A stretch of DNA of 40,590 nucleotides from Nioella sediminis (lineage in GTDB: Bacteria; Pseudomonadota; Alphaproteobacteria; Rhodobacterales; Rhodobacteraceae). The translations under genes and the position numbers were made by a program. Shown one piece after another: positions 4,651-35,619 of the stretch (position 1 is its first letter; each line of letters begins with the position of its first letter). The stretch spans positions 1 to 40,590 of the forward strand of contig NZ_MNBL01000107.1 of assembly GCF_001879695.1 (NCBI RefSeq). The letters are read 5' to 3'. Below the pieces are notes generated by a model. The model did no database searches. It was given only the letters and a program-made list of their open reading frames with translations, and had not been told where the DNA came from.

Positions 4651-5433
4651 TCAGGGCGCGGGATCGTCGTCACCGGGCAAATCCAACGCCTCAATTCCGA
4701 GCGGTGTGCCAATGCCCTCGATGATCATCCGGCGCGTCTCGTCCGGCCCTGTCCAGGCCAGCGCGTCGATGATCGACATATGGGACTGGAACGCGTGCTT
4801 TGCCTGAGCGTAATGCGGATGCGCAAAGCTCATGAACCGAAGACGGACACCCTGCTCGGAGAAGGGGTTGCTGTCGCGCAGATAACCGGCGGACCCGACG
4901 GGCGAGAGGTAAATCCCTGCCTTCAGCCTTTCGCAGACCTGCAACAGCCGTTCCGACCGTTCGAAGTCCGGCAGATTCATCTGGCTGGTCTGGTGAAACG
5001 TCGCCTCAATACCGATTTCCGAGCAGATGTCGCGAATGAACCCGATATTCACCGCCGACAGCCCATGTGTTGACCGGGCCAGCCCGGTTTCCAGCAGGCG
5101 TTCCACCAAGGGCCAATGCGGCGCTTTTCCAAGACACCCCTTGATCCGCGCCACCAGCTTCCGTTCGAAATCGGGTTGCCCGAACCGGGCCTCGTTGATC
5201 AGCGGAAAAGAGGGCTTGCGCGCCACGGGCAGGGACAGCAGCACCGGCCCGTTCGGCCCGGAAATCCGGTTGCGGTTCTGCCAGCTCTGCTTGGTGAACT
5301 GCACATCGTCCAGAAACACGAAATCATCGGCCTGGGCAATCAACGAGAAATAGCCGAGCCACGGCAGGAAGGTGGGCTGCATGATGGCGCAAACCCGCTG
5401 ATCCCCGGTCATCTGGGCAGGCCCGTCGGTCAT
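4651..5433 (-). CDS. WbqC family protein
   Basis: A 260-residue protein of the WbqC-like family, found in O-antigen, capsule and flagellar glycan clusters. The hallmark N-terminal segment is present: QPTFLPWLGYF at about residues 19-29 followed by DDFVFLDDVQFTKQSWQNRN. The biochemical activity of the family is not firmly established; context points to sugar modification or transfer. The start ATG at 5433 overlaps the pseI stop as ATGA (5430-5433), so it is translationally coupled to pseudaminic acid synthase. That coupling suggests it acts on the pseudaminic acid product or on its nucleotide-activated form. Confidence 0.85.
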   Translation of the reverse strand: MTDGPAQMTGDQRVCAIMQPTFLPWLGYFSLIAQADDFVFLDDVQFTKQSWQNRNRISGPNGPVLLSLPVARKPSFPLINEARFGQPDFERKLVARIKGCLGKAPHWPLVERLLETGLARSTHGLSAVNIGFIRDICSEIGIEATFHQTSQMNLPDFERSERLLQVCERLKAGIYLSPVGSAGYLRDSNPFSEQGVRLRFMSFAHPHYAQAKHAFQSHMSIIDALAWTGPDETRRMIIEGIGTPLGIEALDLPGDDDPAP

Positions 5434-6476
5434 GTCTCGACATCGTCATAGGTGATCGGGTGGCCCTTCGGCACATCCCTGACCAGCCGCCGACCCAGCA
5501 CCGTCCCCTTGTCATTGGGCGGAATACCCGCCCCCGGCCGGACGAACCGGAAATCCGCGTCTGTCACGATCTCTCCCGCGCGCAGATCCCGAAGGCTGAA
5601 GGCCGACCGCCGGCCAACCGCCTTGCTGACCTGTTCGGAACTGGACGTGCCTTTCTTCCCGGTCCCCCGCGCGATTGCGGCCTCGGTGACACCGGCGGCG
5701 ATGTCAGCCAGCACATCCGGCGTGGCAGAGAACCTGTGGTCGGGGCCGGTGCGGGTCGGATCGTTGGTGATGTGCTTCTCGATCGCCACGGCCCCCATGG
5801 CCGCCGCCAGAACCGCGGCGCGCGACCCGACCGTGTGGTCCGAGAACCCGACCATCCGCCCGAACCGCGCCCGCAGCGCATCCATCGCGGTCAGGTTGAT
5901 CTCTTCGAACGGGGTCGGATAGGCCGATACGCAGTGCAGCAGGATCACGTCGCCCGCATTGGCCCGCTCCAGTACGTTCAGTGCATGCTCGACCTCGGCC
6001 AGTTCCGCCATGCCGGTCGACATGATCACTGGCTTGCCGGTGCCCGCGATTTCGATCAGCAGGTCATCGAAGGTCATCTCGAAGGACGCGATCTTATAGA
6101 GCGCGCAGCCAAGGTCTTCGGTGAACGGCAGGTCCATCGGGTCGTAGACAGAGGTAAAGGGCAGCATTCCCCGGGCGCGCGCCCTTTCGAACAGCGGCGC
6201 ATGAAATTCCATCGGCATCGCGGCGGACTGGTACAGCTCATAGAGATTTGTGTGGCCCCAGACCTTGTCAACGGCAAGCGAGGGGTGATTGCTGTTCACC
6301 GTCAGGCTGTCGGCGCTGTAGGTCTGCAACTTGAACGCATCCCACCCGGCATCGGCGGCAAGATCCACAAGGGCAAGCGCCTGATCCAGATCGCCGTCGT
6401 GATTGGCACTGAGTTCCGCGATCAGGAATGACTTCTCGGTCTCTCCGATCTTCTTGCCGTCTACTGTGAGTGTCAT
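5430..6476 (-). CDS. pseI: Pseudaminic acid synthase
   Basis: Condenses 2,4-diacetamido-2,4,6-trideoxy-L-altrose with phosphoenolpyruvate to give pseudaminic acid; cytoplasmic. The NeuB-type TIM barrel occupies roughly residues 1-270 (IAELSANHDG near 20, FKLQTYSADSLT, YKIASFEM, GFSDHTVGS, EKHIT). A C-terminal SAF/antifreeze-like domain follows from about 285 (RSAFSLRDLRAGE...). Motifs IAELSANH and YKIASFE are closer to PseI than to sialic acid or legionaminic acid synthases. An ATG at 6494 would add MPERTQ, but the ATG at 6476 overlaps the pseG stop as ATGA and has AGAAAGGA seven bases upstream, so I place the start there (348 residues). Confidence 0.9.
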   Translation of the reverse strand: MTLTVDGKKIGETEKSFLIAELSANHDGDLDQALALVDLAADAGWDAFKLQTYSADSLTVNSNHPSLAVDKVWGHTNLYELYQSAAMPMEFHAPLFERARARGMLPFTSVYDPMDLPFTEDLGCALYKIASFEMTFDDLLIEIAGTGKPVIMSTGMAELAEVEHALNVLERANAGDVILLHCVSAYPTPFEEINLTAMDALRARFGRMVGFSDHTVGSRAAVLAAAMGAVAIEKHITNDPTRTGPDHRFSATPDVLADIAAGVTEAAIARGTGKKGTSSSEQVSKAVGRRSAFSLRDLRAGEIVTDADFRFVRPGAGIPPNDKGTVLGRRLVRDVPKGHPITYDDVET

Positions 6477-7507
6477 CTGGGTCCTTTCTGGCACATTGCC
6501 ATGATCGCCTCCGCCACGCGGGCCGCTCCGTTCCCGTCTACCGCGTCGGCAGCCTCCGAGACCAGCCCCAGATCCGGTTCGCGCGAGGTGACAAGCGTGG
6601 CAATGCGGTCGAAGAAGGCGGCTTTCCCGCCGGGATCGGCAGTGAAATGGATCTCAGCAAGGCCGCTGTCCCGAAACGCTTCGAAATAGGCGCGGTATTC
6701 GTCGTGATCCCACAGATAGAGCGCCCGGCGACCGAGGCAGGCCGCCTCGTAGCGGACAAGGCCGGGCCGACCGACGACAAGGCGTGCGCGCAGGTATAGC
6801 GGGATGAGCGAGCTCAGGCCGCGATGCAGCGTGATCTGCGGGCAGGTCGTGGTCAGTGCCTCAAGGTCCGCGACCAGATCGGGTGCGAACTGGGGGCCTA
6901 TGACCACGTCGACCGGATACACGCCTCGCGCACAGGCGCGCGCAAGTCCAAGCGACAGACCGGTCGGATCGGCACCGCCGCAGGTCACGAGGATTGCACC
7001 CTCGCCTTTCACCGCCGCAGCCTTGGCCCTTGCATGGCGGTAGGCCTCTGGCAGGATCGCATAGGCGCTTCCGGCAAGCCAGCGCGTGTCCGGCAGCGGC
7101 GGGCGCAACTTGTCGGCGGCATGATAGGGCGTGACCAGTAGATCCGGCAGACAGCCCGGATCGGGCGCGGTGAAGTGGTCGGGCGGCATGCTGTCGATCA
7201 CCACGACGCGGTGACCTGCGGCTTTCAGTGTCGCCACATCCGCCGCCGTGGCCATGGCGTTGCCATGGTGCAGCGTATCCAGCACGACAACCGCCCCCTC
7301 GGGCAGCGCAGCGATCCAGCCGGCATCGTCAAGGCGGCCATGCGCGGGAAGGCCAAGCTCCTCCATGACGTCCGGCCGTTCGGGCGACGAGACAAGCACA
7401 TCGCCCTTCAGCGCCTGCGCGAGGGCGGCACAGCGTTGCAGGTGGCCAATGCCTATGCCCGCGCCACCGGATGCGCGCAGGACTATCGCGGGGGTCATCG
7501 CGGCCAT
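6473..7507 (-). CDS. pseG: PseG-like UDP-sugar hydrolase
   Basis: Predicted to remove UDP from UDP-2,4-diacetamido-2,4,6-trideoxy-L-altrose, the step before PseI. About 344 residues, GT-B-like fold. The glycine-rich loop with the catalytic histidine is visible as GIGIGHLQRCAALAQAL near residues 17-33, followed by VVLDTLH around 75 and the C-terminal nucleotide-binding segment with LVTCGGADPTG and VVGRPGLVRYEAACLG. Divergence from the best known PseG sequences makes the exact substrate less certain than for pseI. The upstream stop and this start share TGATG (7505-7509). An internal ATG at 7498 (MTPAIVL) is an alternative start. Confidence 0.78.
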   Translation of the reverse strand: MAAMTPAIVLRASGGAGIGIGHLQRCAALAQALKGDVLVSSPERPDVMEELGLPAHGRLDDAGWIAALPEGAVVVLDTLHHGNAMATAADVATLKAAGHRVVVIDSMPPDHFTAPDPGCLPDLLVTPYHAADKLRPPLPDTRWLAGSAYAILPEAYRHARAKAAAVKGEGAILVTCGGADPTGLSLGLARACARGVYPVDVVIGPQFAPDLVADLEALTTTCPQITLHRGLSSLIPLYLRARLVVGRPGLVRYEAACLGRRALYLWDHDEYRAYFEAFRDSGLAEIHFTADPGGKAAFFDRIATLVTSREPDLGLVSEAADAVDGNGAARVAEAIMAMCQKGPR

Positions 7508-8601
7508 CAGGCTGCAGCCTCTGTCAACAGCCGCTCCTCGATCATCGCGCAGACCCGGCTCACGTTCTGATCTACGTCACCGTAGTGGTCCAGCATCCGG
7601 CGCATTGGGTCCGTCATGCCCCCTTCGACAAAGGCCTCAAGCGATGCCCGGTCGGAGATCACGGGCAGGGACATCAGTTGGCGACAGTTTTCAGCCGCCA
7701 TCAACGCCGCCGGTCGCCCCAGATAGAGCCCATCCAGAACCGCCGTCGACGGGGTGGAGACGATACAGTCCACGAGGCTCAGCACGTCGACGATGTTCAT
7801 GCCCTTAAGCGGACCGGAATGCTGGAACGAGAAGACCACGTTCGGGCAGTCTTGGCCGAGTTGCCTGTCATGCTGGCTGTAGTTTGAGCGGACCTTGCCG
7901 CGATGCGGCCGGACAATCACCGCGACATCCGGGTTTCGCTGGCAATATGCGCGGATCATGCCGTAGGCCTGCTCGATCTGGTTGGCATCATGGCCGCCGC
8001 CCCGGAACGTGTGACAGATCAGGACGCGCCTGCGGAACCCGGCCAGCCGTTGCGCAAGCGCCTCGGGGGGGCGACGCAGCTCGAAAACCGGTTTCTTGGT
8101 AAAGCCGGAAATGCGGATGCGCGGCGCCACGTCCGGCGCCAGAATGCCATCATGGCAGGAAGGATCTTCCCACAGGAAGACCGGATCGGAATGAAACTCC
8201 GTTGCGCTGCCATCGTCCGAGTAGGTCAGGTGCTGCTGGATGACACCATGCTGCATGTAGATCGTCGGAATGCCCGCGTCCTTTATGTAGCGCCCGCGCG
8301 CGCCGAAAACCGACTCGTCATGGCAGGGGTCGCCGATCACGAGCAGCCGGTCGACCCCGCGCAGCAGGCGACGATAGTAGACACCCGCCTTCATCAGCTT
8401 GTTGGGCCGCACCCGATACGCCATGCCCGATCCGCGCAACAGCTTGCGCACGCGCGCTTCGCGCCGCCACAGGCCGGAGGTCACGAACAGATCCAGCTCG
8501 ACCCGCCCCCCATCCCTGAGGCCCGCGAGGATCGGATAGAGGTTTTCAACGTCCGGCACACCGTTCAGAAAGGCCCCCAGGATGGGGCGGCGGGCTGTCA
8601 T
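7507..8601 (-). CDS. GT-B-like surface-sugar transferase
   Basis: A 364-residue soluble protein that I cannot assign to a characterised enzyme. Its second half resembles the nucleotide-binding domain of GT-B or CDP-glycerol glycerophosphotransferase-type enzymes: ICHTFRGGGHD, VIVRPHRGKV, and the diagnostic late segment DCIVSTPSTAVLDGLYLGRP before a variable tail. The first half has IYMQHGVIQQHL, typical of surface-polymer transferases that hold the acceptor side. Reading upstream to 8739 would add a low-complexity extension; the ATG at 8601 overlaps the pseF stop as ATGA and is chosen. Being embedded between pseF and pseG, it may transfer pseudaminic acid or a neighbouring residue onto a flagellin or glycan; this is inference. 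Confidence 0.7.
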   Translation of the reverse strand: MTARRPILGAFLNGVPDVENLYPILAGLRDGGRVELDLFVTSGLWRREARVRKLLRGSGMAYRVRPNKLMKAGVYYRRLLRGVDRLLVIGDPCHDESVFGARGRYIKDAGIPTIYMQHGVIQQHLTYSDDGSATEFHSDPVFLWEDPSCHDGILAPDVAPRIRISGFTKKPVFELRRPPEALAQRLAGFRRRVLICHTFRGGGHDANQIEQAYGMIRAYCQRNPDVAVIVRPHRGKVRSNYSQHDRQLGQDCPNVVFSFQHSGPLKGMNIVDVLSLVDCIVSTPSTAVLDGLYLGRPAALMAAENCRQLMSLPVISDRASLEAFVEGGMTDPMRRMLDHYGDVDQNVSRVCAMIEERLLTEAAA

Positions 8602-9293
8602 GCCTCGACCTCTTCCAGCACTTTCGCCAGCAATTCCGCAAAGGCCCAGTCCTCGGGGGTGTCGATGTCCTGCACCCGGTGACGCGGCAGGACAACCGGG
8701 ATCGTCGGGGACCGCAAGGCCCGGCGGTCCGACAGCCATGCCTCTGCCGTTCCCCAGACGAACTGCGCGGCATCATGATAGGCCTCGCGCAGGTCCTGAC
8801 TGCGCAGAAACAGATTGTCCTGGTTCATCATGGTCAGCTGGCCATCCGTCTCGACCAGCGCGCGTTCCACGGGGGCCGGGAAACTGGCCACGGAAATCGC
8901 GTAATCGGCATCCGAGGCCGTCAGCCTGTCCAGCCCGTCGCGCAGGTCCGCCGCCCTCAGGAACGGGGCGGTGGCGTAGATCAGGCAAACCAAGTCAGGA
9001 GGGGTGATCGACAGCGACAATTGCCGGATCGCGTCCTGCACGACCTCGGTCAGACCGGCGTGGTCATTGGCCAGATCGGCCTGCCGCAGAAACGGCACCT
9101 CGGCCCCCGACGCGCGGGCGACCTCGGCAATCTCGGCATCATCGGTGGTGACGACCACCCGGTCGAACAGGCCCGAGGACAGCGCCTCGCGGATGGCCCA
9201 GGAAATCATCGGCTGGCCGCGGAATGGCCGGATATTCTTGCGCGGAATCCGCTTGGAGCCACCGCGCGCGGGGATGATAGCAACGGTTTTCAA
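8598..9293 (-). CDS. pseF: Pseudaminic acid cytidylyltransferase
   Basis: Activates a nonulosonic acid with CTP to give the CMP-sugar donor; about 231 residues, cytoplasmic. The cytidylyltransferase signature IIPARGGSKRIPRKNI is at residues 6-21, with VVVTTDDAEIAEVA near 47-60 and the metal-binding region HRVQDIDTPEDWAFAE close to the C-terminus. NeuA, LegF and PseF share this fold; PseF is preferred because the operon contains pseI- and pseG-type genes. It is the first gene of the minus-strand operon, which continues through ATGA or TGATG junctions into the transferase gene, pseG, pseI and the WbqC gene. Confidence 0.85.
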   Translation of the reverse strand: MKTVAIIPARGGSKRIPRKNIRPFRGQPMISWAIREALSSGLFDRVVVTTDDAEIAEVARASGAEVPFLRQADLANDHAGLTEVVQDAIRQLSLSITPPDLVCLIYATAPFLRAADLRDGLDRLTASDADYAISVASFPAPVERALVETDGQLTMMNQDNLFLRSQDLREAYHDAAQFVWGTAEAWLSDRRALRSPTIPVVLPRHRVQDIDTPEDWAFAELLAKVLEEVEA

Positions 9294-9620: not shown

Positions 9621-10736
9621 ATGTCCTTTGACATCAATATCGGTCCCAACATTCGCAAGTCGGCCTATTTCGAGGCGACCGTTGCCGACGGTGTGCGGTC
9701 CTTCTCGGTTTACAACCACATGTATATTCCCGGCAATTTCGGCGACCCGGAGGCGGAATATGACCGGCTGTTGAATGGCGTCGCGATGTGGGACGTGGCC
9801 GCGCAACGGCAGGTGGAGCTTTCTGGCCCCGATGCGGGCGCGCTGGCGCAATACCTGACGCCGCGCAACCTGTCGGCGACAAGGGTCGGCCAGGGCCGTT
9901 ATGTACCGCTCTGCGATCACGATGGCTGGCTGATCAACGACCCGGTTCTGCTGAAACTGGAGGATACCCGCTATTGGCTGTCGGTCGCGGATAGCGATAT
10001 TCATCTCTGGGCCGCCGCCGTCGCGCGGGAAAAGCGAATGGATGTGCAGGTGTTCGAGCCCGATGTCTCGCCGCTGGCCATTCAGGGTCCGAAGGCCGAA
10101 GACGTGACCGCCGCGCTATTCGGGAATTGGGTGCGCGAACTGCGCTACTTCGCGTTCCGCGAAACCGAGCTGAACGGCATCCCGCTGGTGCTGGCGCGGT
10201 CCGGCTGGTCGAAACAGGGCGGGTTTGAGCTTTACCTGACGGATGGCAGCCGGGGTGGCGATCTGTGGCAGGCGGTGAAAGAGGCGGGCCGGCCCTTCGG
10301 CATCGGGCCGGGCGCGCCGAATGATACCGAACGGCTGGAAAGCGGGCTGATTTCCTATGGCGCGGATATGCGGTTGCAGACGCATCGGACAAATCCCTAC
10401 GAAATGGGCTTTGGCCCGCTGATCGATCTTGCCGCAGGGCATGATTTCATCGGTCGCGCGGCGCTGGAACGGATCGCGGCGAACGGCCCTGCACGCCGCC
10501 GGGTCGGGCTGGTGCTGGACGGCGACCCAGTGCAGCCGAACGCCCATCCGGTGCAGCTGCTTCAGGACGGCCAGCCGGTCGGTCATGTCAGCGAGGTGGC
10601 GGCGTCCCGCCGCCTGGGGATGAATATCGGCGTCGGTCTGATCCGCGCGGATATCGCCGACAGCGCCACCGGTCTCAGCGTCGCCCTGCCCGATGGAACC
10701 CGTGCCGCCCGGCTGGCGCCCCTGCCCTTCGCCTGA
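9621..10736 (+). CDS. DmdA-like aminomethyltransferase-family protein
   Basis: A 371-residue folate-binding protein of the GcvT family. The two GcvT domains are visible: the N-terminal part with VYNHMYIPGNFG, MWDVAAQRQVELSGPDA and LTPRN, and the C-terminal part from about 285. The order VYNHM, MWDVA, DPVLLKL, SVADSDIHLW, VSPLAIQGP and RSGWSKQGGFELYL closely follows dimethylsulfoniopropionate demethylase (DmdA), which passes a methyl group from DMSP to tetrahydrofolate. DmdA-like proteins outside the true clade may act on other methylated compounds, so I do not give a symbol. It faces the LysR gene tail-to-tail with a four-base gap. Confidence 0.75.
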   Translation: MSFDINIGPNIRKSAYFEATVADGVRSFSVYNHMYIPGNFGDPEAEYDRLLNGVAMWDVAAQRQVELSGPDAGALAQYLTPRNLSATRVGQGRYVPLCDHDGWLINDPVLLKLEDTRYWLSVADSDIHLWAAAVAREKRMDVQVFEPDVSPLAIQGPKAEDVTAALFGNWVRELRYFAFRETELNGIPLVLARSGWSKQGGFELYLTDGSRGGDLWQAVKEAGRPFGIGPGAPNDTERLESGLISYGADMRLQTHRTNPYEMGFGPLIDLAAGHDFIGRAALERIAANGPARRRVGLVLDGDPVQPNAHPVQLLQDGQPVGHVSEVAASRRLGMNIGVGLIRADIADSATGLSVALPDGTRAARLAPLPFA

Positions 10737-10740
10737 CGCC

Positions 10741-11622
10741 TCACAGATCCGAGCGGATCCACTCCGCGAACCGTTCCAGCGGCGCGCGCATTGGCCGGTC
10801 ATTGGGCCATACAAGGTAGTAGCTGCCGGTTGAGGCCACTGGACCGCCATAGGCCACGACCAGCCGTCCCCGCGCGATCTCGGCCTCGGCAAGAAATGTG
10901 GGCAGGAGGGCAACGCCCATTTCCAGCGCCGCGGCCTGAGCAATGGTCGTGAACTGATCGAAGAGCATGCCGCGCGGGGCGCTGACATCGACGCCCTGAT
11001 GGTGGAACCAATCCTCCCATGCGCTCGCTCGGGTATCGAGATGCAGCAGCGGCAGGTCCAGCAGCGCCTCGGGGCGGTCCAGCGCATCCGTCAGCAACCC
11101 CGGCGCGCAGACCGGCAGCACCTCCTCGCCCGCGATCTTCAGATAGGACACGCCGGGCCAGTCCTGCGCGCCGAAATGCACCGCCGCATCGAAGGGTTCG
11201 CGGGCGAAATCAAACGGCTTCAGCCGGGTGGACAGGTTCAGCGACACTTCCGGGTGCGCAAGGCTGAACCGGCGAAAACGGGGTGCCAGCCAATGGATTC
11301 CGAAGGTGGGCAGGATCGACAGATCAAGACTGCCGCCATCGGGATTTGCCTTCAACCGCAGCGAGGCACGAGACAGGGCCGTCAGGCTTTCCCTCAGCGT
11401 CTGGCAATAATCCACCGCAGCGGGCGTCAGCCGCAACCCGCCCCGCCCCGGCTGCACCAGCGTGACGCCCAACTGATCCTCCAGCACCTTGATCTGGCGG
11501 CTGACCGCGCTGTGCGTGAGCGATAACTCTTCCGCTGCAGCGGTGGCGCTGCCAAGGCGGTCCACCGCCTCCAGCGCCAGCATGGAGGGAAGCGAGGGCA
11601 GGAAGCGGCGCGAGGCAATCAT
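10741..11622 (-). CDS. LysR-family transcriptional regulator (GcvA-like)
   Basis: A 293-residue DNA-binding regulator. The N-terminal winged helix-turn-helix is seen in SMLALEAVDRLGSATAAAEELSLTHSAVSRQI (split over residues about 13-44), followed by the linker helix and a periplasmic-binding-protein-like effector domain from about residue 90. The TH-S-AVSRQIK recognition helix and the effector domain layout match the GcvA/AmpR subgroup. An ATG at 11682 would add 20 atypical residues; the ATG at 11622 puts the HTH at the usual distance and has GGAG upstream. It is divergent from the E1-fusion gene, the usual arrangement for a LysR regulator and its target. Confidence 0.88.
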   Translation of the reverse strand: MIASRRFLPSLPSMLALEAVDRLGSATAAAEELSLTHSAVSRQIKVLEDQLGVTLVQPGRGGLRLTPAAVDYCQTLRESLTALSRASLRLKANPDGGSLDLSILPTFGIHWLAPRFRRFSLAHPEVSLNLSTRLKPFDFAREPFDAAVHFGAQDWPGVSYLKIAGEEVLPVCAPGLLTDALDRPEALLDLPLLHLDTRASAWEDWFHHQGVDVSAPRGMLFDQFTTIAQAAALEMGVALLPTFLAEAEIARGRLVVAYGGPVASTGSYYLVWPNDRPMRAPLERFAEWIRSDL

Positions 11623-11759
11623 GTGAGTTTTTCTCCAACTCGTCGGAGAATTCATCATTGGCGCTGCCGTGTAAATACGCATATTTCAGAAGGGAAAGTG
11701 ACAGCCCCGCTGCGATCTCCTTCAATAAAATCGCACGGAACAAGCCAGTAGAGGCCCCC
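11623..11759. promoter_or_regulatory. LysR / E1-fusion divergent control region
   Basis: A 137-base gap between divergent genes. Two inverted repeats stand out: TTCTCC-N8-GGAGAA at 11631-11650 next to the lysR start, and AAATA-CGCA-TATTT at 11673-11686 inside a T-N11-A context (TAAATACGCATATTTCA). The second is the better candidate for a LysR box controlling the E1 gene. AT content is higher here than in the flanking genes. No binding data are implied. Confidence 0.45.
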
Positions 11760-13949
11760 ATGGACCGCGCCCAGATCGTCCACGACAATTTCCTGACCCG
11801 CGTGGCCAAGCGCGATTTCCCCCCCGGCAGGCCCCCCGCGCCGGGCCTGCCCGCCCCGCTGGCGGTGTCGCTCTTCCGGTCGCAGTGCCTGTCCCGCGCG
11901 CTCGACCGGGAAAGCCGCGCGATGCAGAAGGCGGGGCAAGGGTATTACACGATCGGTTCCTCGGGGCATGAAGGCATGGCCGCCGTCGCCGCCGCCCTGC
12001 GCCCCACGGATCCGGCCTTCCTTCATTACCGCGATGCCGCCTTCCAGATCGCCCGCAGCGCGCAGGTGCCGGGGCAGAATATCACCTGGGACATGCTGCT
12101 GTCCTTCGCCTGCTCCTCGGAAGACCCGATTTCAGGCGGGCGGCACAAGGTTCTGGGTTCGCGTGACCTGATGATCCCACCCCAGACCTCGACGATTGCC
12201 AGTCACCTGCCAAAAGCGGTCGGCGCGGCATTTTCCGTCGGCCTCGCCCGTCGGCATCCGCCCGAACATAAGCTCTATGCCGATGACGCCATCGTCATGT
12301 GCAGCTTCGGCGATGCCTCCACCAACCATTCCACCGCGCAAGGGGCCATCAACACGGCGGGCTGGACCTCGGTTCAATCCACACCCCTGCCGCTGCTTTT
12401 TGTCTGCGAGGACAATGGCATCGGCATCTCGGTCAAGACGCCGAAAGGCTGGATCGAGGCCAGCATGCGCCACCGCCCCGGCATCCGGTATTTCAGCGCC
12501 GACGGGCTCGATATCTACGACACCTACAAAGTCGCGCAGGAGGCCGCCGATTACGTCCGCACCCGCCGCAAGCCCGCCTTCCTGCACCTGCGCACCGTCC
12601 GGCTCTATGGCCATGCGGGCGCGGATGTGGCGCTGAGCTACCTGTCGAAAGACGAGGTCGAGGCCGGCGAAGCCAACGATCCGCTTCTTCATTCCGCCCG
12701 TCTGCTGGACAAATCCGGCGCCCTGCCCGCCGAGGATGCACTGGCGATCTACGAGGACACCAACGCCCGCGTGACCCGCGTGGCGGCAGAGGCCGTGACC
12801 CGCCCCCGCCTGCAGGACGCGGCGGGCGTGATGGCCAGCCTCACCCCCCCGAAACGCGACTGCGCACCGACGAATGGCCCCTCGGCGGAGGCGCGGGCGG
12901 CCGCGTTCGGCGCGGACATGAAGGCGATGGACAGCCCTCAGCCCCTGTCGAAAATCCTCAACCTCGCGCTCACCGACCTGATGCTGGACCATCGCGAAAT
13001 CGTCCTGATGGGCGAGGATGTCGGCCGCAAGGGCGGTGTCTATGGCGTCACGCAGAAGCTGCAACAGCGCTACGGCCCCGACCGGGTGATCGACACGCTG
13101 CTTGATGAACAATCCATCCTTGGCAATGCAATCGGCATGGCAGGCAATGGCTTCGTGCCCATCCCCGAGATTCAGTTCCTCGCCTATCTGCACAACGCCG
13201 AGGATCAACTGCGAGGAGAGGCCGCCACCCTGCCCTTCTTCTCGAACGGCCAGTTCACCAACCCGATGGTGGTGCGGATCGCCGGGCTTGGCTATCAGAA
13301 GGGGTTCGGTGGCCATTTCCACAATGACAACTCGCTGGCCGTGCTGCGCGACATTCCCGGCCTCATCCTCGCCTGCCCCTCCACCGGCGAAGACGCGGCC
13401 ATGATGCTGCGTGAAAGCGTGCGGCTGGCGCGGGAGGAACAGCGGGTCGTCGTCTTTGTGGAACCCATTGCGCTCTACCCGATGCGCGACCTGCATGAAG
13501 CGGGCGATGGCGGCTGGATGACGCGCTATCCCGCCCCCGACCGGCGCATTCCGCTTGGCGAGATCGGCCAGCAGGGCGACGGGCAGGATCTGGCGATCAT
13601 CACCTATGGCAACGGGCATTACCTGTCGCAGCAGGCACAGGCGCGGCTGGAGGCGGACGGGATCAGAACCCGCGTCATTGACCTGCGCTGGCTGGCGCCC
13701 CTGCCGGTCGATGCCATGATCGAGGCCGTCCGAGGCTGCGCCCATGTTCTGGTGGTCGACGAATGCCGCTTCACCGGCGGCCAGGCCGAGGCGCTGATGG
13801 CGCATCTGCACGAGGCCGGGATCGCCAGTTTCGCGCGGGTGACGGCAGAGGACAGCTTCATCGCCACCGGCCCTGCCTATGGCGCGACGCTACCCTCGGC
13901 GGAGGGCATCTACACGGCGGCGAAGACCCTGACGGGAGGCATGGCATGA
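11760..13949 (+). CDS. Fused alpha/beta TPP-dependent 2-oxoacid dehydrogenase E1
   Basis: A 729-residue enzyme that joins both halves of a branched-chain/pyruvate-type E1 in one chain. Residues about 30-370 are the alpha part with the thiamine-diphosphate site (FGDAS near 183-187 and CEDNGIGIS near 216-224). Residues about 390-720 are the beta part: MGEDVGRKGGVYG, the pyrimidine-binding domain, then the transketolase C-terminal domain (VIDLRWLAPLP, VVDECRFTGG). It should decarboxylate a 2-oxo acid and pass the acyl group onward. Neither E2 nor E3 lies nearby, which is odd. The start at 11760 was preferred over an ATG at 11658 that adds 34 unconserved residues. Its stop overlaps the next start as ATGA. 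Confidence 0.88.
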   Translation: MDRAQIVHDNFLTRVAKRDFPPGRPPAPGLPAPLAVSLFRSQCLSRALDRESRAMQKAGQGYYTIGSSGHEGMAAVAAALRPTDPAFLHYRDAAFQIARSAQVPGQNITWDMLLSFACSSEDPISGGRHKVLGSRDLMIPPQTSTIASHLPKAVGAAFSVGLARRHPPEHKLYADDAIVMCSFGDASTNHSTAQGAINTAGWTSVQSTPLPLLFVCEDNGIGISVKTPKGWIEASMRHRPGIRYFSADGLDIYDTYKVAQEAADYVRTRRKPAFLHLRTVRLYGHAGADVALSYLSKDEVEAGEANDPLLHSARLLDKSGALPAEDALAIYEDTNARVTRVAAEAVTRPRLQDAAGVMASLTPPKRDCAPTNGPSAEARAAAFGADMKAMDSPQPLSKILNLALTDLMLDHREIVLMGEDVGRKGGVYGVTQKLQQRYGPDRVIDTLLDEQSILGNAIGMAGNGFVPIPEIQFLAYLHNAEDQLRGEAATLPFFSNGQFTNPMVVRIAGLGYQKGFGGHFHNDNSLAVLRDIPGLILACPSTGEDAAMMLRESVRLAREEQRVVVFVEPIALYPMRDLHEAGDGGWMTRYPAPDRRIPLGEIGQQGDGQDLAIITYGNGHYLSQQAQARLEADGIRTRVIDLRWLAPLPVDAMIEAVRGCAHVLVVDECRFTGGQAEALMAHLHEAGIASFARVTAEDSFIATGPAYGATLPSAEGIYTAAKTLTGGMA

Positions 13950-14977
13950 CACGCAAGGCGGTTCTGATCTGCCCCGGACGGGGCACCTACAACGCCCCCG
14001 AACTGGGCTATCTTGGGCGCCACCACGGGGCGCGCTCAGATCTTGTTGCGCGCTTCGATGCAATCCGAGCTGAGGCGGGCCGTGAAACCGTTTCCGCGCT
14101 GGACAGCGCCGGGAAATTCAGCGTCTCGAAATACTCGCGCGGCGACGTGGCCTCGCCCCTCATCTGCGCCTGTTCGCTGGCCGATGCGGCGGCACTGGCC
14201 GAGGATATCGAGGTCGTCGCCGTCACCGGCAATTCCATGGGCTGGTATCTGGCGCTGGCCGCGGGTGGCGCCCTGTCGCCCGAGGACGGGTTCCGCGTGG
14301 TCGACACCATGGGCAGCCTGATGCAGGAGCACCTGATCGGCGGGCAACTGGTCTACCCGTGGATGGGCGAGGACTGGCAACCGGATTTGGGGCGCAAGGC
14401 GGAGTTGTTGGAGATCGTGGCAGGGATCAACGCCCGCGACGGGCAGGATCTGCACCTCTCCATCGACCTTGGTGGCATGTTGGTGCTGGCAGGGAACGAT
14501 GCCGGGCTGAAAGCCTTTGAAACCGCTGTTCCCCCTGTCGGTGGACGCTTCCCCATGCGGCTGGCCAACCATGCGGCGTTCCACACCGCGATGCAGGCCC
14601 CCGTGGCCGAAAAGGGCCGCGCCGCACTGCCGGCGACGCTCTTCGGTCAGCCGCAAAAGCCCCTCATCGACGGGCGCGGGTCCGTCTGGTGGCCAGGGGC
14701 CACGGACACACAAGCGCTCTGGCGCTACACCTTCGATACGCAGGTCTGCGAGACCTACGACTTCACCGCAGCAATCCGCACGGCGGCCCGCGAATTCGCC
14801 CCCGACCTCTTCATCGTGACCGGCCCGGGCGCGACGCTTGGCGGGGCCGTGGCGCAGTCGCTGGTGCTGGCCCAGTGGAAAGGCATGGCGGACAAGGCGG
14901 GGTTCGAGGCCGTGCAGGCAAGCGAAAAACTCCTCGTCTCCATGAGCCGCGAGGATCAGCGCGCGCAGGTCACCTGA
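13946..14977 (+). CDS. Malonyl-CoA:ACP acyltransferase-like protein
   Basis: A 343-residue protein related to FabD-type acyltransferases. The nucleophile elbow G-N-S-M-G is at residues 95-99 (Ser97), replacing the usual GHSLG, and the later histidine region appears as LANHAAFHTAM near 207-215. The N-terminus lacks the standard FabD start FVFPGQGSQ and instead reads ICPGRGTYN, so it is a divergent member rather than the housekeeping FabD. It is coupled by ATGA to the E1 fusion, suggesting that the acyl group made by E1 is loaded onto or removed from a carrier thiol. Specific substrate unknown. Confidence 0.7.
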   Translation: MTRKAVLICPGRGTYNAPELGYLGRHHGARSDLVARFDAIRAEAGRETVSALDSAGKFSVSKYSRGDVASPLICACSLADAAALAEDIEVVAVTGNSMGWYLALAAGGALSPEDGFRVVDTMGSLMQEHLIGGQLVYPWMGEDWQPDLGRKAELLEIVAGINARDGQDLHLSIDLGGMLVLAGNDAGLKAFETAVPPVGGRFPMRLANHAAFHTAMQAPVAEKGRAALPATLFGQPQKPLIDGRGSVWWPGATDTQALWRYTFDTQVCETYDFTAAIRTAAREFAPDLFIVTGPGATLGGAVAQSLVLAQWKGMADKAGFEAVQASEKLLVSMSREDQRAQVT

Positions 14978-14982
14978 CGCAA

Positions 14983-15002
14983 GGGGCCGGGCACCCGGCC
15001 CC
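14983..15002. terminator. Bidirectional terminator hairpin
   Basis: GGGGCCGGG-CA-CCCGGCCCC forms a nine-base-pair inverted repeat between the convergent acyltransferase-like gene and the PhyH-family gene. Its position in a 32-base convergent gap fits a terminator serving both strands. There is no clear T-run on either side, so efficiency is uncertain. Confidence 0.6.
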
Positions 15003-15009
15003 CCACTGG

Positions 15010-15795
15010 TCACGCCGCGTAGATCACCGGAAAGCGCCCGCCCCGGAAGGGATCGCCCTTCGCAAGGCTCGCATCATGCAGCCATTCCGTGACCTCATCA
15101 CGCGGATCATACGTGGCGCCCTCCACCGCAAAACGGATCGCGTAGCCCCGCCGCCGGTGGGTCGAGGTACGGTTGCCCATGGCCGAATGCACGCTCATCC
15201 CGTCAAAGGCCAGCGCATCGCCGGGGGCCATCTGCGGGAAGTGGAAGATGTCGTAGCTCGCCCGCTCCGCCTCGAAATCCGGCATGTCGATATAGTCGGG
15301 GTTCCCCACCTCCAGGTAATGCGAAAACGCGCCGAGCTGGTCGGTCTTGAATGGCCGGTATTTCGCGCCCCAGGCGTGCGACCCGCGCACGAATTCCAGC
15401 GCGCCATTATCCGCGTCCACATCATCAAGCGCGATCCACATGGTCATGATCGGGCCCTGAACAGGCCAGTAAGGCTGATCCGTGTGCCAGCCTGTCTGGG
15501 TCTTCGTCCCCGGCTCCTTCACGAAGATCTGGTCGTAGATGAGCGAGGTCCACGGGCTGCCCGCCACCTCGGCCACACGCTGGCCGATATCCGATTGAAG
15601 GCAATAGTCCTGAAAGGTGCCGGGCCGCTCGCGCATGTTCTTGTAGGCGAAATAGCGCTCGCCCTTCTGCACTTCGAGGTCGATCGCCGCGCGCAGCTTC
15701 TCGATCCACTCGGGCGAAACCGCATTGCGCAGCAGCACGACACCGTCGCGCTTGTAGTCCTCCTGCACCCGTGGCAGGTCTGGGGTAAGGGTCAT
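15010..15795 (-). CDS. Phytanoyl-CoA dioxygenase (PhyH) family protein
   Basis: A 261-residue Fe(II)/2-oxoglutarate-dependent oxygenase. The iron-binding H-x-D is in WHTDQPYW and the distal histidine in MSVHSAMGNRTS, followed by the 2-oxoglutarate-binding arginine region (RRRGYAIRF). The double-stranded beta-helix core fills most of the protein. Family members hydroxylate varied small molecules (phytanoyl-CoA, ectoine, natural products), so the substrate cannot be named. Upstream ATGs reach 15837, but the ATG at 15795 starts MTLTPDLPRVQEDY and has GGAG eight bases before it. Convergent with the E1/acyltransferase operon. Confidence 0.82.
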   Translation of the reverse strand: MTLTPDLPRVQEDYKRDGVVLLRNAVSPEWIEKLRAAIDLEVQKGERYFAYKNMRERPGTFQDYCLQSDIGQRVAEVAGSPWTSLIYDQIFVKEPGTKTQTGWHTDQPYWPVQGPIMTMWIALDDVDADNGALEFVRGSHAWGAKYRPFKTDQLGAFSHYLEVGNPDYIDMPDFEAERASYDIFHFPQMAPGDALAFDGMSVHSAMGNRTSTHRRRGYAIRFAVEGATYDPRDEVTEWLHDASLAKGDPFRGGRFPVIYAA

Positions 15796-16176
15796 CTGGA
15801 AAGCTCCGATCATCCGGGCTGCCATCGCGGCAGCCATGTCATCTGGGGCGAGGCCCCGGTTTTTGGCGGATCATCAGAGAGCGGGGGAGGAGCGGATATT
15901 GATGATGAAACAGGGCCAGCAGGACCGCGCCGACCATTTCCCGGTCAGCCTGTCGCGGAACTGTCGGACCCTCTCCAGCATCGCATCTGCCTTTCACTGC
16001 CCCTCACGCTGACAGGCTTTGCGCGACCTGCCAAGGGGAAATGGGTGTTGGGAGTGGCTTGAGGGGCAAAGTCTTTGAGGGCTTGAGGTCGGCTTTGAGG
16101 TGCGAAGTGACCCTTTTCACTGACGCGCTAAGCGACCGCTTTTCATAACAGATCTGATGCCTTATATGCTCTAATT
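15796..16176. other. Intergenic region left of HNH gene
   Basis: 381 bases without a supported gene. The left half keeps the high GC of the neighbours. From about 16040 the sequence becomes lower in GC and contains repeated TTTGAGG and GGCTTGAGG words (about 16056-16100). The 12-base word CGACCTGCCAAG at 16024-16035 recurs at 16984-16995 on the other side of the HNH gene. The stretch just before 16177 (TTATATGC, TAATTATGG) is AT-rich and should hold the HNH gene promoter. Confidence 0.45.
16024..16035 (+). repeat. Direct repeat, left copy
   Basis: CGACCTGCCAAG, identical to 16984-16995. The two copies bracket about 950 bases that contain the low-GC HNH gene. Could be an insertion footprint or a chance match. 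Confidence 0.4.
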
Positions 16177-16830
16177 ATGGCAAACCGTGATGATTTTAGA
16201 GCACCCGTAATAAGAACAATTGCGCAACGCGCAGGTTACCGATGTTCAAATCAAACCTGTTTACGTCCGACCATTGGTCCGGACGGTGCTAGTGATAGCA
16301 CAAGTATTGGCGTTGCCGCACACATTACGGCCGCTGCCGAAAGGGGGCCACGGTACGATCCCACTTTAACACCAGATGAACGAACTGCTGCCGAAAATGG
16401 AATTTGGCTATGTCAAACCTGTAGCAGATTGGTGGACGCGGATATTGCCAGTCACTCCGCTGAACTGCTGAGAGAGTGGAAAACCATGGCGGAGATGCGC
16501 GCGTATCTTGGCATTCGCGGCTTCTCAATTGTCGTGTCCCGCAGCTACAAAAAGCTTGAAGAAAAAATGCCACATCTTGTGGCGGAGATGCGGAACGATA
16601 TTGTAAAGGATCCGTTTATCCGAGAATTCATAGTCATGTCTAAGAAGTGGTCCTACAATGGCGACCCTGAGAACCCCATTTTCACATATTATTTTGAAAC
16701 TCACGAGAGCTTGAGGCCAAAGTTAAAGGTGATGCAAAACTACGACGCGATCATAGAGACCACCTACAACAATGTTGATCGCTTTGAGTTTACCGAAGAA
16801 TTTGCTGAATACCTTCTCATGCCTGTATAG
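16177..16830 (+). CDS. HNH-nuclease-like protein, possible defence gene
   Basis: A 217-residue protein with base composition clearly lower in GC than its surroundings. Residues about 14-105 look like a zinc-supported HNH module: RAGYRCSNQTCLRP, then GVAAHITAAAERGPRYDP with the first histidine, then ENGIWLCQTCSRLVDAD with a Cys-x-x-Cys pair, ending HSAELLREWK. This arrangement is common in HNH proteins of mobile and antiphage loci. The remaining 110 residues (IVVSRSYKKLEEK... to EYLLMPV) match nothing I recognise and may be a sensing domain. It stands alone between hut and the PhyH gene. A catalytic role is not proven, since the third HNH residue is unclear. Confidence 0.65.
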   Translation: MANRDDFRAPVIRTIAQRAGYRCSNQTCLRPTIGPDGASDSTSIGVAAHITAAAERGPRYDPTLTPDERTAAENGIWLCQTCSRLVDADIASHSAELLREWKTMAEMRAYLGIRGFSIVVSRSYKKLEEKMPHLVAEMRNDIVKDPFIREFIVMSKKWSYNGDPENPIFTYYFETHESLRPKLKVMQNYDAIIETTYNNVDRFEFTEEFAEYLLMPV

Positions 16831-28690: not shown

Positions 28691-30202
28691 TCACGCGCCG
28701 AGGCGCGGAATGTGATGCTGGCCGGTGGCGAGGCCGATATGTTTCTGTTCCATGTAGAATTCGAAGCTCCAGTCCCCGCCATCGCGCCCGATGCCGCTGG
28801 CCTTGACGCCGCCGAAGGGTGTCGGCAGGTGGCGGACGTTTTCAGAGTTTACCCAGATCATCCCAGCCTCCAGCCTGTCGGTAATACGCAATGCGCGGGT
28901 CAGGTCGTTGGTCCAGACATAGCCCGTCAGTCCATAGGGAATGTCATTGGCGATCTGCATTGCCTCATCTTCATCCTTGAACCGGATCGCGGTCAGCACG
29001 GGGCCGAAGATTTCCTCCTGCGCGATGGCCATGTCATTGCTGGCCCCGGTGAAGAGAGTCGGTTGAACGAACCAGCCCAGATCGCCCGCCCGCCTGCCGC
29101 CAACGGCGATCTCGGCCCCCTCGGCGCGGGCCTTGTCGAAATAGGAACAGACTTTGTCGAAATGGGTCTTGTGGATAAGCGGCCCCACTTCGGTGGCGGG
29201 ATCGAGCGGGTTGCCAACTCGGATGTTTCTCACCCGCGCGGCCAGCTTTTCAAGGAAGCCATCGGCCACGCTGTCCTGAATAAGCAGCCGCGAGGACGAT
29301 GTGCAGCGCTCGCCATTCAACGAATAGATCATGAAAATCGCCGCATCGAGCGCGCGGTCCAGATCGGCATCCTCGAAGACCATCACCGGGTTCTTGCCCC
29401 CCAGTTCGAAATGCACGCGCTTGAGGGTCTCGGCCCCCTGTTTCATGATCATCGAGCCGGTTCTGGATTCCCCCACGAAGGCGATGGCCTTGATATCGGG
29501 GTGTTCGGTCAGGGCCTTGCCCGCATCCTCGCCAAAGCCGTTCACCAGGTTCCACACGCCCGGCGGCAGCCCCGACTCTTCGGCGATCTCCATCAGGATG
29601 CGCGCGGTTACCGGGCTGAATTCCGCGGGCTTGTGCACCACGGTGCAGCCCGCCGCCAGCGCCGGCGCGATCTTCCAGGTGGAGAGCATAAAGGGCGTGT
29701 TCCACGGCGTGATCACCCCCACGGGGCCGATGGGCACGCGGGTCGTTATGTTCATCAGCGTGGGCGAGGGCAGCGCCTGCCCGTCGCGGGCCGAGAGCGC
29801 GCGGTCGGCGAAGAAGCGGAAGTTCTCGGCGCCGCGAAGGGCCGCCTTCGACATGAAGCGATAGGCTTGGCCCGTGTCCCAGCATTCACAGAGCGCGATT
29901 TCCTCGGCCCGTGCGACGATGCCGTCGGCGATCCGGTGCAGGATGGCCTTGCGTTCGGTTGCGGGCAGGTCGCGCCAGGCGGGATAGGCCGCCTTGGCGG
30001 CGCGTGCCGCAACGTCCACATCCTCCGCCCCCGACCGCGCCACACGGCAGATGAAGCTTTCATCCACCGGCGAATGGTTGTCGAATGTCGCGCCCGAGAC
30101 GGCAGGCCGCGCTTCGCCCCCGATCTGGTTCAGAACGCCCGTGTCGCGGAACCGGGCAAGGTAGCCGTCCAGCTTGGCCTGGTGGGTGGCAAGGTCGGTC
30201 AT
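28691..30202 (-). CDS. hpaE: 5-carboxymethyl-2-hydroxymuconate semialdehyde dehydrogenase
   Basis: NAD-dependent aldehyde dehydrogenase of the homoprotocatechuate pathway, 503 residues. Active-site Cys is near residue 300 in NGERCTSSSRLL and the general-base Glu near 266 in FELGGKNPVMVFED; PWNTPFMLSTWKIAPALA precedes the cofactor site. The overall sequence follows HpaE better than generic betaine or puuC-type dehydrogenases, and it lies between hpaD and hpaF. The ATG at 30202 overlaps the hpaF stop as ATGA; longer versions from 30529 run through hpaF in another frame. Confidence 0.92.
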   Translation of the reverse strand: MTDLATHQAKLDGYLARFRDTGVLNQIGGEARPAVSGATFDNHSPVDESFICRVARSGAEDVDVAARAAKAAYPAWRDLPATERKAILHRIADGIVARAEEIALCECWDTGQAYRFMSKAALRGAENFRFFADRALSARDGQALPSPTLMNITTRVPIGPVGVITPWNTPFMLSTWKIAPALAAGCTVVHKPAEFSPVTARILMEIAEESGLPPGVWNLVNGFGEDAGKALTEHPDIKAIAFVGESRTGSMIMKQGAETLKRVHFELGGKNPVMVFEDADLDRALDAAIFMIYSLNGERCTSSSRLLIQDSVADGFLEKLAARVRNIRVGNPLDPATEVGPLIHKTHFDKVCSYFDKARAEGAEIAVGGRRAGDLGWFVQPTLFTGASNDMAIAQEEIFGPVLTAIRFKDEDEAMQIANDIPYGLTGYVWTNDLTRALRITDRLEAGMIWVNSENVRHLPTPFGGVKASGIGRDGGDWSFEFYMEQKHIGLATGQHHIPRLGA

Positions 30203-30591
30203 GGCAGCTCCTTCGGCAGATGGTCGCGGATCGTGCCCGTCTTGGGGCTGAGATCGGGGTCGATGTCGCGCATCTCGAAGGAAAGCGCGATGGAATGCCG
30301 TGCCATGGCCGGGGCAAGGAAGGCCTCGGCGGCGGCGAAGATATGGGCGGTGGCGGCGCGCTTGGCCTCGTCGGAACGGCCGCCGCGCAGGCGCAGGCTG
30401 ATGTCGACATAGCCGTGCTGCGGATCGCCATCGGCGATGCTGACATGGGTGGCGCGGATGGCGCGCACGCGGATACCGGGCATCGGCAGGATACCGGTGT
30501 CGATGGCGGCCCGCCGCAGCACATCGCACAGCGCGACCATGTCAGCGCGCTCCTCCATGTTGGGCGAATACTCGACGATGATATGGGGCAC
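30199..30591 (-). CDS. hpaF: 5-carboxymethyl-2-hydroxymuconate isomerase
   Basis: A 130-residue tautomerase-superfamily enzyme that isomerises 5-carboxymethyl-2-hydroxymuconate. It starts with GTG: after Met the next residue is Pro (M)PHIIVEYSPNM, which places the catalytic N-terminal proline correctly. AGGAGG lies eight bases before this GTG and not before the upstream ATG at 30645, which would bury the proline. Further family features are GIRVRAIRATHV and the late SFEMRDIDPDLSPK. First gene of the hpaFED operon. Confidence 0.92.
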   Translation of the reverse strand: MPHIIVEYSPNMEERADMVALCDVLRRAAIDTGILPMPGIRVRAIRATHVSIADGDPQHGYVDISLRLRGGRSDEAKRAATAHIFAAAEAFLAPAMARHSIALSFEMRDIDPDLSPKTGTIRDHLPKELP

Positions 30592-30660
30592 CGGGGCTCC
30601 TCCTAATTTACTTGCTTTGTTAAGCAAATGCATGAAGGGAGTCAAGCCCGATCTTTTGCG
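30592..30660 (-). promoter_or_regulatory. hpaFED promoter and palindromic operator
   Basis: On the minus strand TTGACT (30640-30645) is separated by 17 bases from TAACAA (30617-30622). The -10 lies inside the perfect inverted repeat TTGCTT-TGTT-AAGCAA (30612-30627). An operator across the -10 implies repression. The HpaR-type regulator at 39012-39467 is the likely ligand of this site, but that is inferred. Confidence 0.6.
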
Positions 30661-30680
30661 CTCCCTCTGATCCGGGCGGG

Positions 30681-30724
30681 AAGCGGTTTCGAAACCGCTT
30701 AAACAAGGGCCTTCGAAGGCCCTT
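30681..30724. terminator. Two tandem perfect 20-base palindromes
   Basis: AAGCGGTTTCGAAACCGCTT (30681-30700) and AAGGGCCTTCGAAGGCCCTT (30705-30724) are separated by four bases; both centre on TTCGAA. They lie just after the stop of the UPF0261 gene and before the hpaF promoter, so termination of the tct-aldehyde dehydrogenase-UPF0261 transcript is the simplest role. Confidence 0.7.
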
Positions 30725-30753
30725 CCCCCGCCAGGATCAAACCGCGCATCACG

Positions 30754-31980
30754 TCAGGCCAGGCCGCGCGCCCGCCAATCATCGAAGATCTCAAGCGCCC
30801 TTGCCGCAAAGGCCGCATCATTGATATGGGCGTCGATCTCTTCCAGCCGCACATTGGCGGGGCAGCTTGCGCGCATCTCGTCGCAGAACGCGGTCAGTCC
30901 CTCTGGGTTGTGCAGGTCCGCACCCGGTCGGTCCCATTCGCCGCAGCCACCTAGGGGCAACAGCAGCACGGTTTCGCCCCTGGCCTCCGCCAGCGCCCGG
31001 CCATGCGCGCGGGCGACCGCGCGCACCCCGTCGGCGTCCAGCACCACCGAGGTGATGAGCCGGTTATGCGCATGGCTCGGCAGATCGGCCCATGTCTCGG
31101 GGATGCCGCGCCATCCGGCCAGATCCACCAGGTCATAGCAGCCGGTCGAGACCAGCTGCGGAATGCCCGCCTTGCCAGCATTTGTCAGCCGGTCGGCCCC
31201 CGCCGTCACGTCCGAGCCATGGGTGTCGTTGCCCAGCTCCTGCGTGCAGAAATCGAAGACGGCAGCAAAAGCGCCTTGCGCGGCGAGCGATTCAAACGCC
31301 CGCCCGCCCATGCCGGTCGCATGAAACACGGCGACCTCGTATCCGCGCGCCTCTAGCTCGGGCTTCAGGTAGACCATGTATCGCAGCGCCGACTTGCCAA
31401 GGCTCGTCATGCCGATGAGCGGCTTCGACCGGTCCGGTGCCTCCACCGCCCGCGCCGCCCCCAGAACCGCGCCCGCCGCCTGGCTGAGCGACGACTTGCA
31501 GACCGAATTCAGCCCGTAAAGCCCCCCGGCCCAGAGGATCATCTGGATATCGGCGGGCAGGCGGTCGGCCGGGATGAGGGTGGAGAAAGCCACGGTCGAG
31601 ACGATGTATTTCGGCACCCCAAGCGGCAACGCGCTGCACAGGTCAAGGGCCAGGTCCGTGCCCATGGAGCCGCCCAGAACCACAACCCCGTCGAACCGCC
31701 CCTCGGCCCAGGCCCGCGCCGCCAGTGCCGCCGACCCGCGCGCCATGATCTGCATGGCGGTATTTTCATCACCCGAGGCAATGGCCGCGTCGATGCTGGA
31801 CCCGCCCGCCTTGGCCACGTCATGCTTGGAGATATCGGTGGGTTGCGAGGGATCGCCCAGAACCGAGACGTCCATGGTCAGCACCCCGCCCCCCTGCGCG
31901 CGAATGCGCTCGGCCATGTAGAGCAGCTCGTCGTCCTTGGTGTCGTAGGTGCCCACCACCAGAATGGTCTTGTCCGCCAT
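30754..31980 (-). CDS. UPF0261 / Tm-1-like ATP-binding protein
   Basis: A 408-residue member of the UPF0261 (Tm-1-like) family. N-terminal VVGTYDTKDDELLYM and the DVSVLG, VVLGGSMGTDLA, MTSLGKSALRYM and FHATGMGGRAFESL blocks are diagnostic for the family. The tomato Tm-1 protein is the known distant relative, and an ATP-binding fold has been assigned, but the bacterial function is not known. Usually a TIM-barrel partner gene lies next to it; none is here. It starts ten bases upstream of the aldehyde dehydrogenase stop, so it is co-transcribed with the transport genes. Confidence 0.82.
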   Translation of the reverse strand: MADKTILVVGTYDTKDDELLYMAERIRAQGGGVLTMDVSVLGDPSQPTDISKHDVAKAGGSSIDAAIASGDENTAMQIMARGSAALAARAWAEGRFDGVVVLGGSMGTDLALDLCSALPLGVPKYIVSTVAFSTLIPADRLPADIQMILWAGGLYGLNSVCKSSLSQAAGAVLGAARAVEAPDRSKPLIGMTSLGKSALRYMVYLKPELEARGYEVAVFHATGMGGRAFESLAAQGAFAAVFDFCTQELGNDTHGSDVTAGADRLTNAGKAGIPQLVSTGCYDLVDLAGWRGIPETWADLPSHAHNRLITSVVLDADGVRAVARAHGRALAEARGETVLLLPLGGCGEWDRPGADLHNPEGLTAFCDEMRASCPANVRLEEIDAHINDAAFAARALEIFDDWRARGLA

Positions 31981-31990
31981 ATCTCCCCGC

Positions 31991-33475: not shown

Positions 33476-33485
33476 CTCTTGCCCC

Positions 33486-35003: not shown

Positions 35004-35012
35004 CACCGGGCC

Positions 35013-35552: not shown

Positions 35553-35562
35553 CCGCGCGCCC

Positions 35563-35609: not shown

Positions 35610-35619
35610 ATTACATCGC

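Follow-up and report, generated by a model that had tools for sequence, protein, structure and literature searches.

A conserved E1/FabD-like gene pair without an E2 gene of its own: a proposed module for the conversion of 2-oxoadipate to glutaryl-CoA in lysine breakdown

The window analysed here is a stretch of 40,590 nucleotides from Nioella sediminis (Rhodobacteraceae; contig NZ_MNBL01000107.1 of assembly GCF_001879695.1), which carries two overlapping genes on its forward strand. The first (11760-13949) encodes a single-chain alpha/beta E1 of 729 aa, and the second (13946-14977) encodes a 343-aa protein resembling the acyltransferase FabD. The two genes share the four bases ATGA (13946-13949), where the start of one overlaps the stop of the other. 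It was found that they form a conserved unit that lacks an E2 gene of its own. Judged by the genes that recur beside it in other genomes, this unit is probably a module that converts 2-oxoadipate to glutaryl-coenzyme A (glutaryl-CoA) in the 2-aminoadipate route of lysine breakdown, a reading that we hold with somewhat more belief than doubt. An earlier note on this DNA had described a one-chain alpha/beta E1 coupled through ATGA to a divergent FabD-like gene with its Ser in GNSMG, the lack of E2 and E3 close by, and the order of a LysR, a DmdA-like and a PhyH gene around the pair; the open reading frames (ORFs), coordinates and protein families agree with all of this. Its interpretation stood in part. 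Acyl transfer through the partner within a conserved, E2-less unit is plausible, whereas the proposed small-molecule or methylated sulfur/nitrogen pathway does not fit the neighbours, which are lysine, 2-aminoadipate and glutaryl-CoA genes.

Conservation was followed in 120 loci that were found with the FabD-like protein. This set merges two sources and includes close relatives and repeated genomes (G003/L062, G001/L063 and G002/L098, with others likely), and its members are therefore not independent. The flanks reach no further than about 10 kb, or 15 kb in the case of three plasmids, and are shorter at contig ends; in draft genomes, a missing gene may reflect a gap in the assembly. The E1 adjoins the FabD-like gene in 119 of the 120 loci, and the exception (L126) begins at a contig end. 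The four-base overlap is kept in 109 of these 119 loci, which indicates that the pairing goes beyond chance. Of 147 related genomes, 26 contain a match to the FabD-like protein (24 strong, two weak), and all 24 strong ones adjoin the E1. The phylum sample gave strong matches in 16 of its 398 genomes, and the class sample in three of 289. A scan of species genomes with two patterns gave at least 583 confirmed stretches, counted up to twice per gene, and 80 loci were kept. At one locus (L045, genome G014), the E1 is split into two matches that overlap and lie in different frames; the gene there is possibly broken or wrongly assembled.

The 28 window proteins scanned, to which the search for E3 was limited, showed no Pfam domain of the E2, lipoyl or E3 kind. 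Five E2/lipoyl queries from the window's own genome gave no match in 132 loci, and the positive control worked. The earlier note had set a co-occurring E2/E3 pair elsewhere against its own reading; on this point no E2 accompanies the E1 in the 132 loci, whereas one of 12 further loci with the E1 only (L223) does contain an E2 of the 2-oxoglutarate dehydrogenase (OGDH) type, 8.7 kb distant and on the opposite strand. The unit was therefore set outside the 2-oxoacid dehydrogenase complexes, because a linked E2 was looked for and is lacking. The window's own genome does hold three PF00198 E2 matches. Three further E1 beta genes were inspected in it (C38, C81 and C140), and all adjoin lipoyl proteins.

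The E1 contains the E1_dh, Transket_pyr and Transketolase_C domains (PF00676, PF02779 and PF02780), all above their curated cut-offs. Alignment to the E1 beta chains in the PDB that were retrieved by hmmsearch at 1e-15 showed that the thiamine diphosphate and active-site residues, whose roles we take to be those in known E1 enzymes, are kept. The structure model of the E1 (predicted local distance difference test, pLDDT, 83.8) is of low confidence in the active-site loops. The alpha2beta2 E1 enzymes of the branched-chain 2-oxoacid and pyruvate dehydrogenases (BCKDH and PDH; 1um9, 1w85 and 2bp7) are among its best sequence relatives in the PDB and share its domains and thiamine diphosphate motifs. 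They differ from it in that the E1 here is one chain and no E2 gene was found nearby.

The FabD-like protein has no Pfam match, and its NCBIfam matches are weak (MdcH, 48 bits; FabD, 35 bits), far below the respective cut-offs. Its AlphaFold model (pLDDT 96.0), however, resembles FabD structures (lowest Foldseek E 9.4e-17), so that a FabD fold is present at about 20% identity. In a profile alignment, Ser97 (within GNSMGW) and His213 align with the catalytic pair of FabD, and both are invariant in 25 sequences. The fold and the Ser/His pair are thus shared with the malonyl-CoA:acyl carrier protein (ACP) transacylase FabD (1mla, 3hjv). The difference lies in Met122, likewise invariant in the 25 sequences, which occupies the place of the Arg that we take to bind the malonyl carboxylate; this Arg, expected of FabD, is missing. 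Met122 argues against a malonyl specificity. All three annotated plasmid records call the product 'ACP S-malonyltransferase', a name that is doubtful because of the same replacement.

The proposed function was read from the genes beside the pair. On two Ruegeria plasmids, the order is a divergent LysR gene, a class I/II aminotransferase, an acyl-CoA dehydrogenase, the E1 and the FabD-like gene. The closest PDB relatives of the Ruegeria acyl-CoA dehydrogenase are 4w9u (683 bits; named acyl-CoA dehydrogenase) and 3gnc (642 bits; glutaryl-CoA dehydrogenase). On a Shewanella plasmid, an acyl-CoA dehydrogenase identified as glutaryl-CoA dehydrogenase (GcdH, 71% identity) is followed by the E1 and the FabD-like gene, and GcdH lies upstream in five of the seven other non-alphaproteobacterial loci (L161-L164 and L169; not L166 or L095, of which L095 is placed outside the alphaproteobacteria provisionally). 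Other neighbours are an L-piperidine-6-carboxylate dehydrogenase (P6CDH; NF050084, cut-off 730, score 807.8 bits), an AmaA-like pipecolate oxidase (below its cut-off of 600, with 421 bits) and a saccharopine-dehydrogenase-like (SacDH-like) protein. Over the 120 loci, the flanks contain the E1 at 119, LysR at 65, AmaA-like at 39, P6CDH at 33, GcdH at 29 (at an identity cut-off of 55%, our own choice) and SacDH-like at 18; an aminotransferase was found at 22 and eight loci by two queries. At least one of GcdH, P6CDH, SacDH-like and AmaA-like is present at 78 of the 120. By our own estimate, a single gcdH in a genome of about 4 Mb would fall within 10 kb by chance in about one of 200 genomes. A protein of about 1080 aa, by eye resembling a ferredoxin-linked reductive dehalogenase, also lies in the flanks at 32 of the 120 loci; at L087, it is found at 4947-8186 bases past the start of the FabD-like gene.

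The recurrent neighbours point to lysine breakdown via 2-aminoadipate. Every other enzyme leading from pipecolate or saccharopine to crotonyl-CoA has a candidate that adjoins the pair in some lineage, which makes the step from 2-oxoadipate to glutaryl-CoA the likely one for the unit. It is the only step left without a gene and is a reaction of the E1 type, and therefore it was assigned to the E1. We infer the substrate (from the neighbouring genes), the acyl carrier, the electron acceptor, and also what the FabD-like protein takes its acyl group from and hands it to. In the proposed mechanism, the E1 would decarboxylate 2-oxoadipate in a thiamine diphosphate-dependent manner and, most likely, reduce a borrowed lipoyl domain that belongs to OGDH or to some other 2-oxoacid complex of the cell. 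Acting as a Ser-His acyltransferase, the FabD-like protein would move the glutaryl group onto CoA, and GcdH would convert glutaryl-CoA to crotonyl-CoA. The human 2-oxoadipate E1 uses the E2 and E3 of OGDH, and because of this sharing a borrowed lipoyl arm is, by analogy, the most likely electron acceptor.

The co-occurrence of genes across genomes is in line with this assignment. P6CDH or SacDH-like was found in 17 of 24 E1-bearing genomes with the FabD-like gene against one of 12 without it (Fisher p 0.0009; p 0.0001 when G026, in which the E1 reaches a contig end and the downstream side is unseen, is removed), and within the family in 16 of 23 genomes with the FabD-like gene against nine of 67 (p ~1e-6); both tests ignore kinship, and SacDH-like was counted at E 1e-40, which includes a group of about 40% identity. 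In Phaeobacter, an AmaA-like relative (58% identity) is carried on plasmids of 219-268 kb. According to the portion of PMC5653290 available to us, Phaeobacter inhibens lacking its 262-kb plasmid accumulates pipecolate, the pipecolate oxidase gene is assigned to that plasmid, and the intermediates of lysine include pipecolate and 2-aminoadipate; that portion names no enzyme for 2-oxoadipate. The AmaA-like relative on the Phaeobacter plasmids is likely the pipecolate oxidase gene of that study.

Several observations weigh against the assignment. The acyl-CoA dehydrogenase stayed below all of the NCBIfam cut-offs shown, as did the aminotransferase, and the SacDH-like label comes from reading the sequence, with no confirming NCBIfam match. 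When kinship was taken into account, five independent tree pairs were available, of which about two were informative; none ran against expectation, and they are too few for a test. Both P6CDH and SacDH-like are missing from 18 of 35 E1-bearing genomes of the family. Over the 147 genomes, P6CDH does not track the E1 significantly at 0.05 (p 0.07), nor does GcdH within the family (p 0.37); GcdH fails to do so because it is so common there. The window's own assembly contains no P6CDH that could be found and no GcdH orthologue among 10 acyl-CoA dehydrogenase matches (best, 33% identity). A SacDH-like gene is present in it at 42%, and GcdH was found in all five genomes of the same genus that were searched, the match in G003 being partial. 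P. inhibens has a second lysine route, via cadaverine, 5-aminopentanoate and glutarate to glutaryl-CoA, that also depends on GcdH, and the same paper cites work in which the saccharopine pathway is unused by this organism (PMC5653290). Finally, the E1 frequently stands without its partner. Orthologues of the E1 occur in 36 of the 147 relatives, 12 of which lack the FabD-like gene, and in 29 of the 398 phylum genomes, 13 of which lack it; the two samples share some genomes. The linkage that the earlier note had asked about is thus nearly complete from the side of the FabD-like gene and incomplete from the side of the E1.

In the 12 E1-only genomes among the relatives, all 33 inspected motif positions of the E1 are kept, so that some E1s of this clade do without the partner. 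We therefore regard the E1 as the core of the unit, to which the FabD-like protein is tightly coupled without being indispensable. GcdH is close to the E1 in nine of 24 loci lacking the FabD-like gene (two of 12 and seven of 12 in the two sets, for which identity cut-offs of 50% and 45% of our own choosing were applied); in the seven, it lies at most 7.7 kb away, with 71% identity in two and 49-51% in five. On the E1 tree, the FabD-like gene is scattered: 10 changes were counted, and shuffled data averaged 11.4. When the tree is rooted with two distant E1s, all 19 rows bearing the FabD-like gene fall into one clade (SH-aLRT 99) together with nine rows that lack it; outside this clade stand nine E1-only rows that belong to a different class of proteobacteria, together with one E1 from an actinobacterium. 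The root is unsure, as the two outgroup rows are very long, and gains are indistinguishable from losses. The mean distance from the family ancestor is 0.79 for E1-only rows (n=12) and 0.66 for rows with the partner (n=23; Mann-Whitney p 0.004), a weak difference given that the rows are related.

It could also be argued that the unit is a lipoyl-free 2-oxoacid dehydrogenase of lysine breakdown, in which the thiamine diphosphate of the E1 would hand the acyl group directly to the FabD-like protein's Ser, from where it would reach CoA. E2 and E3 would thereby be replaced, and the electrons would go to an acceptor such as a flavoprotein. The overlap in 109 of 119 loci, the constant position of the FabD-like gene beside the E1 (119 of 120) and the lack of E2/lipoyl matches in 132 loci agree with this proposal, which we nevertheless regard as unlikely. 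No single redox neighbour is kept in the majority of loci (GcdH at 29, AmaA-like at 39 and P6CDH at 33 of 120), the three E2 matches of the window's own genome could serve, and the partnerless E1s keep their motif residues and sometimes have GcdH as a neighbour. An obligatory substitution of E2 by the FabD-like protein is weakened by the E1-only genomes (12 of 36 and 13 of 29).

More doubtful still is an arrangement in which a shared E2 and E3 are all that the E1 works with, the FabD-like protein being of secondary use, either moving glutaryl to an acyl carrier (e.g., toward biotin) or removing wrong acyl groups. Such a division of labour would suit the E1-only lineages, including the separate clade of nine rows and one actinobacterial sequence, and glutaryl-CoA is used for pimeloyl-ACP in alphaproteobacteria (PMC7645780). 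The same paper, however, reports that BioZ prefers glutaryl-CoA over glutaryl-ACP, and the FabD-like gene tracks the lysine-pathway genes (17 of 24 against one of 12 E1-bearing genomes). That the E1 loads an acyl carrier in an undescribed small-molecule or methylated sulfur/nitrogen pathway involving the DmdA-like and PhyH proteins is very improbable: a distant E1-like gene (29.9% identity) does overlap a nonribosomal peptide synthetase (NRPS) gene on a Streptomyces plasmid, but a reading by eye, with no domain scan of the flanks, recognised no carrier-protein, NRPS or polyketide synthase family among the listed recurrent flank proteins of at least 200 aa. Moreover, the DmdA-like and PhyH genes flank the pair in three genomes of one genus, and a locus of that same genus (L039) lacks them. 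The Streptomyces overlap (L202, 5893-13917) lies near regulators of the SARP and ScbR types.

Among the genes around the pair in the window, the GcvA-type LysR gene (10741-11682, reverse strand; Pfam/NCBIfam) is divergent from the E1 and is probably the regulator of the unit; the relatives counted at 65 of the 120 loci have at least 40% identity. The GcvT/DmdA-like gene (9621-10736, forward strand) scored 378.8 against the cut-off of 410 for DmdA (NF009133). The label 'DmdA-like' is thus correct, and an identity as the dimethylsulfoniopropionate demethylase DmdA is not supported. The PhyH gene (15010-15837, reverse strand; PF05721) encodes a protein whose closest PDB relative is MysH (96 bits). 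Both genes were tried as members of the unit, as the earlier note had them, and rejected, since they stand beside the pair nowhere but in the window's genus (five of 120 rows); at L039, hutU directly follows the FabD-like gene. In the window, the FabD-like gene is separated from hutU by the PhyH gene and by an ORF without a Pfam match (16177-16830; HNH-like by eye), and a counterpart of this ORF is present in L037 and not in L038 or L039. Further away, a group of surface-sugar genes (4651-9293) comprises WbqC, NeuB, a cytidylyltransferase and two ORFs without a Pfam match, and at 28691-36588 a UPF0261 protein gene flanked by two aldehyde dehydrogenase genes is followed by genes for a tripartite tricarboxylate transporter.

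Related systems are known, and each differs from the pair. On plasmid pAK1 of Paracoccus sp. AK26 (L201, 4132-9209), a single-chain E1 with aminotransferase and aldehyde dehydrogenase genes upstream shares 28.7% identity with the E1 described here, and an E2 gene occupies the downstream place that is taken here by the FabD-like gene. The 2-oxoadipate dehydrogenase complex with DHTKD1 differs in that the E1 of the pair is of the one-chain alpha/beta (PDH/BCKDH) type and not of the DHTKD1 type, lies away from any E2 gene and shares bases with the FabD-like gene. The reaction proposed for the pair, from 2-oxoadipate to glutaryl-CoA, is the same as that of this complex of DHTKD1 (E1a), E2 and E3 (PMC9367764). 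HglS (DUF1338, PF07063) also uses 2-oxoadipate in lysine breakdown (PMC7286885) but belongs to another protein family and yields D-2-hydroxyglutarate in place of glutaryl-CoA. Three of the 147 genomes contain it (one by a weak match), a number too small for a test; each of the three has P6CDH and lacks the E1, and in G044, HglS adjoins P6CDH and GcdH.

No description of the E1/FabD-like pair was found in the open-access literature searched, as judged by titles and the beginnings of abstracts, and the main text of PMC9007349 contains no word beginning with oxoadipate or glutaryl. The single-chain E1, the FabD fold and the lysine route are each known singly; on the same titles and abstract openings, their combination was not found in the open-access literature searched. 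In bacteria that use the 2-aminoadipate route, the conversion of 2-oxoadipate to glutaryl-CoA is usually ascribed to a promiscuous OGDH. The pair provides a concrete and widespread two-gene candidate for this step (the at least 583 stretches, up to two per gene). If it is true that the acyltransferase takes the acyl group from the E1 or from a lipoyl arm, this would be a new way of finishing a 2-oxoacid dehydrogenase reaction.

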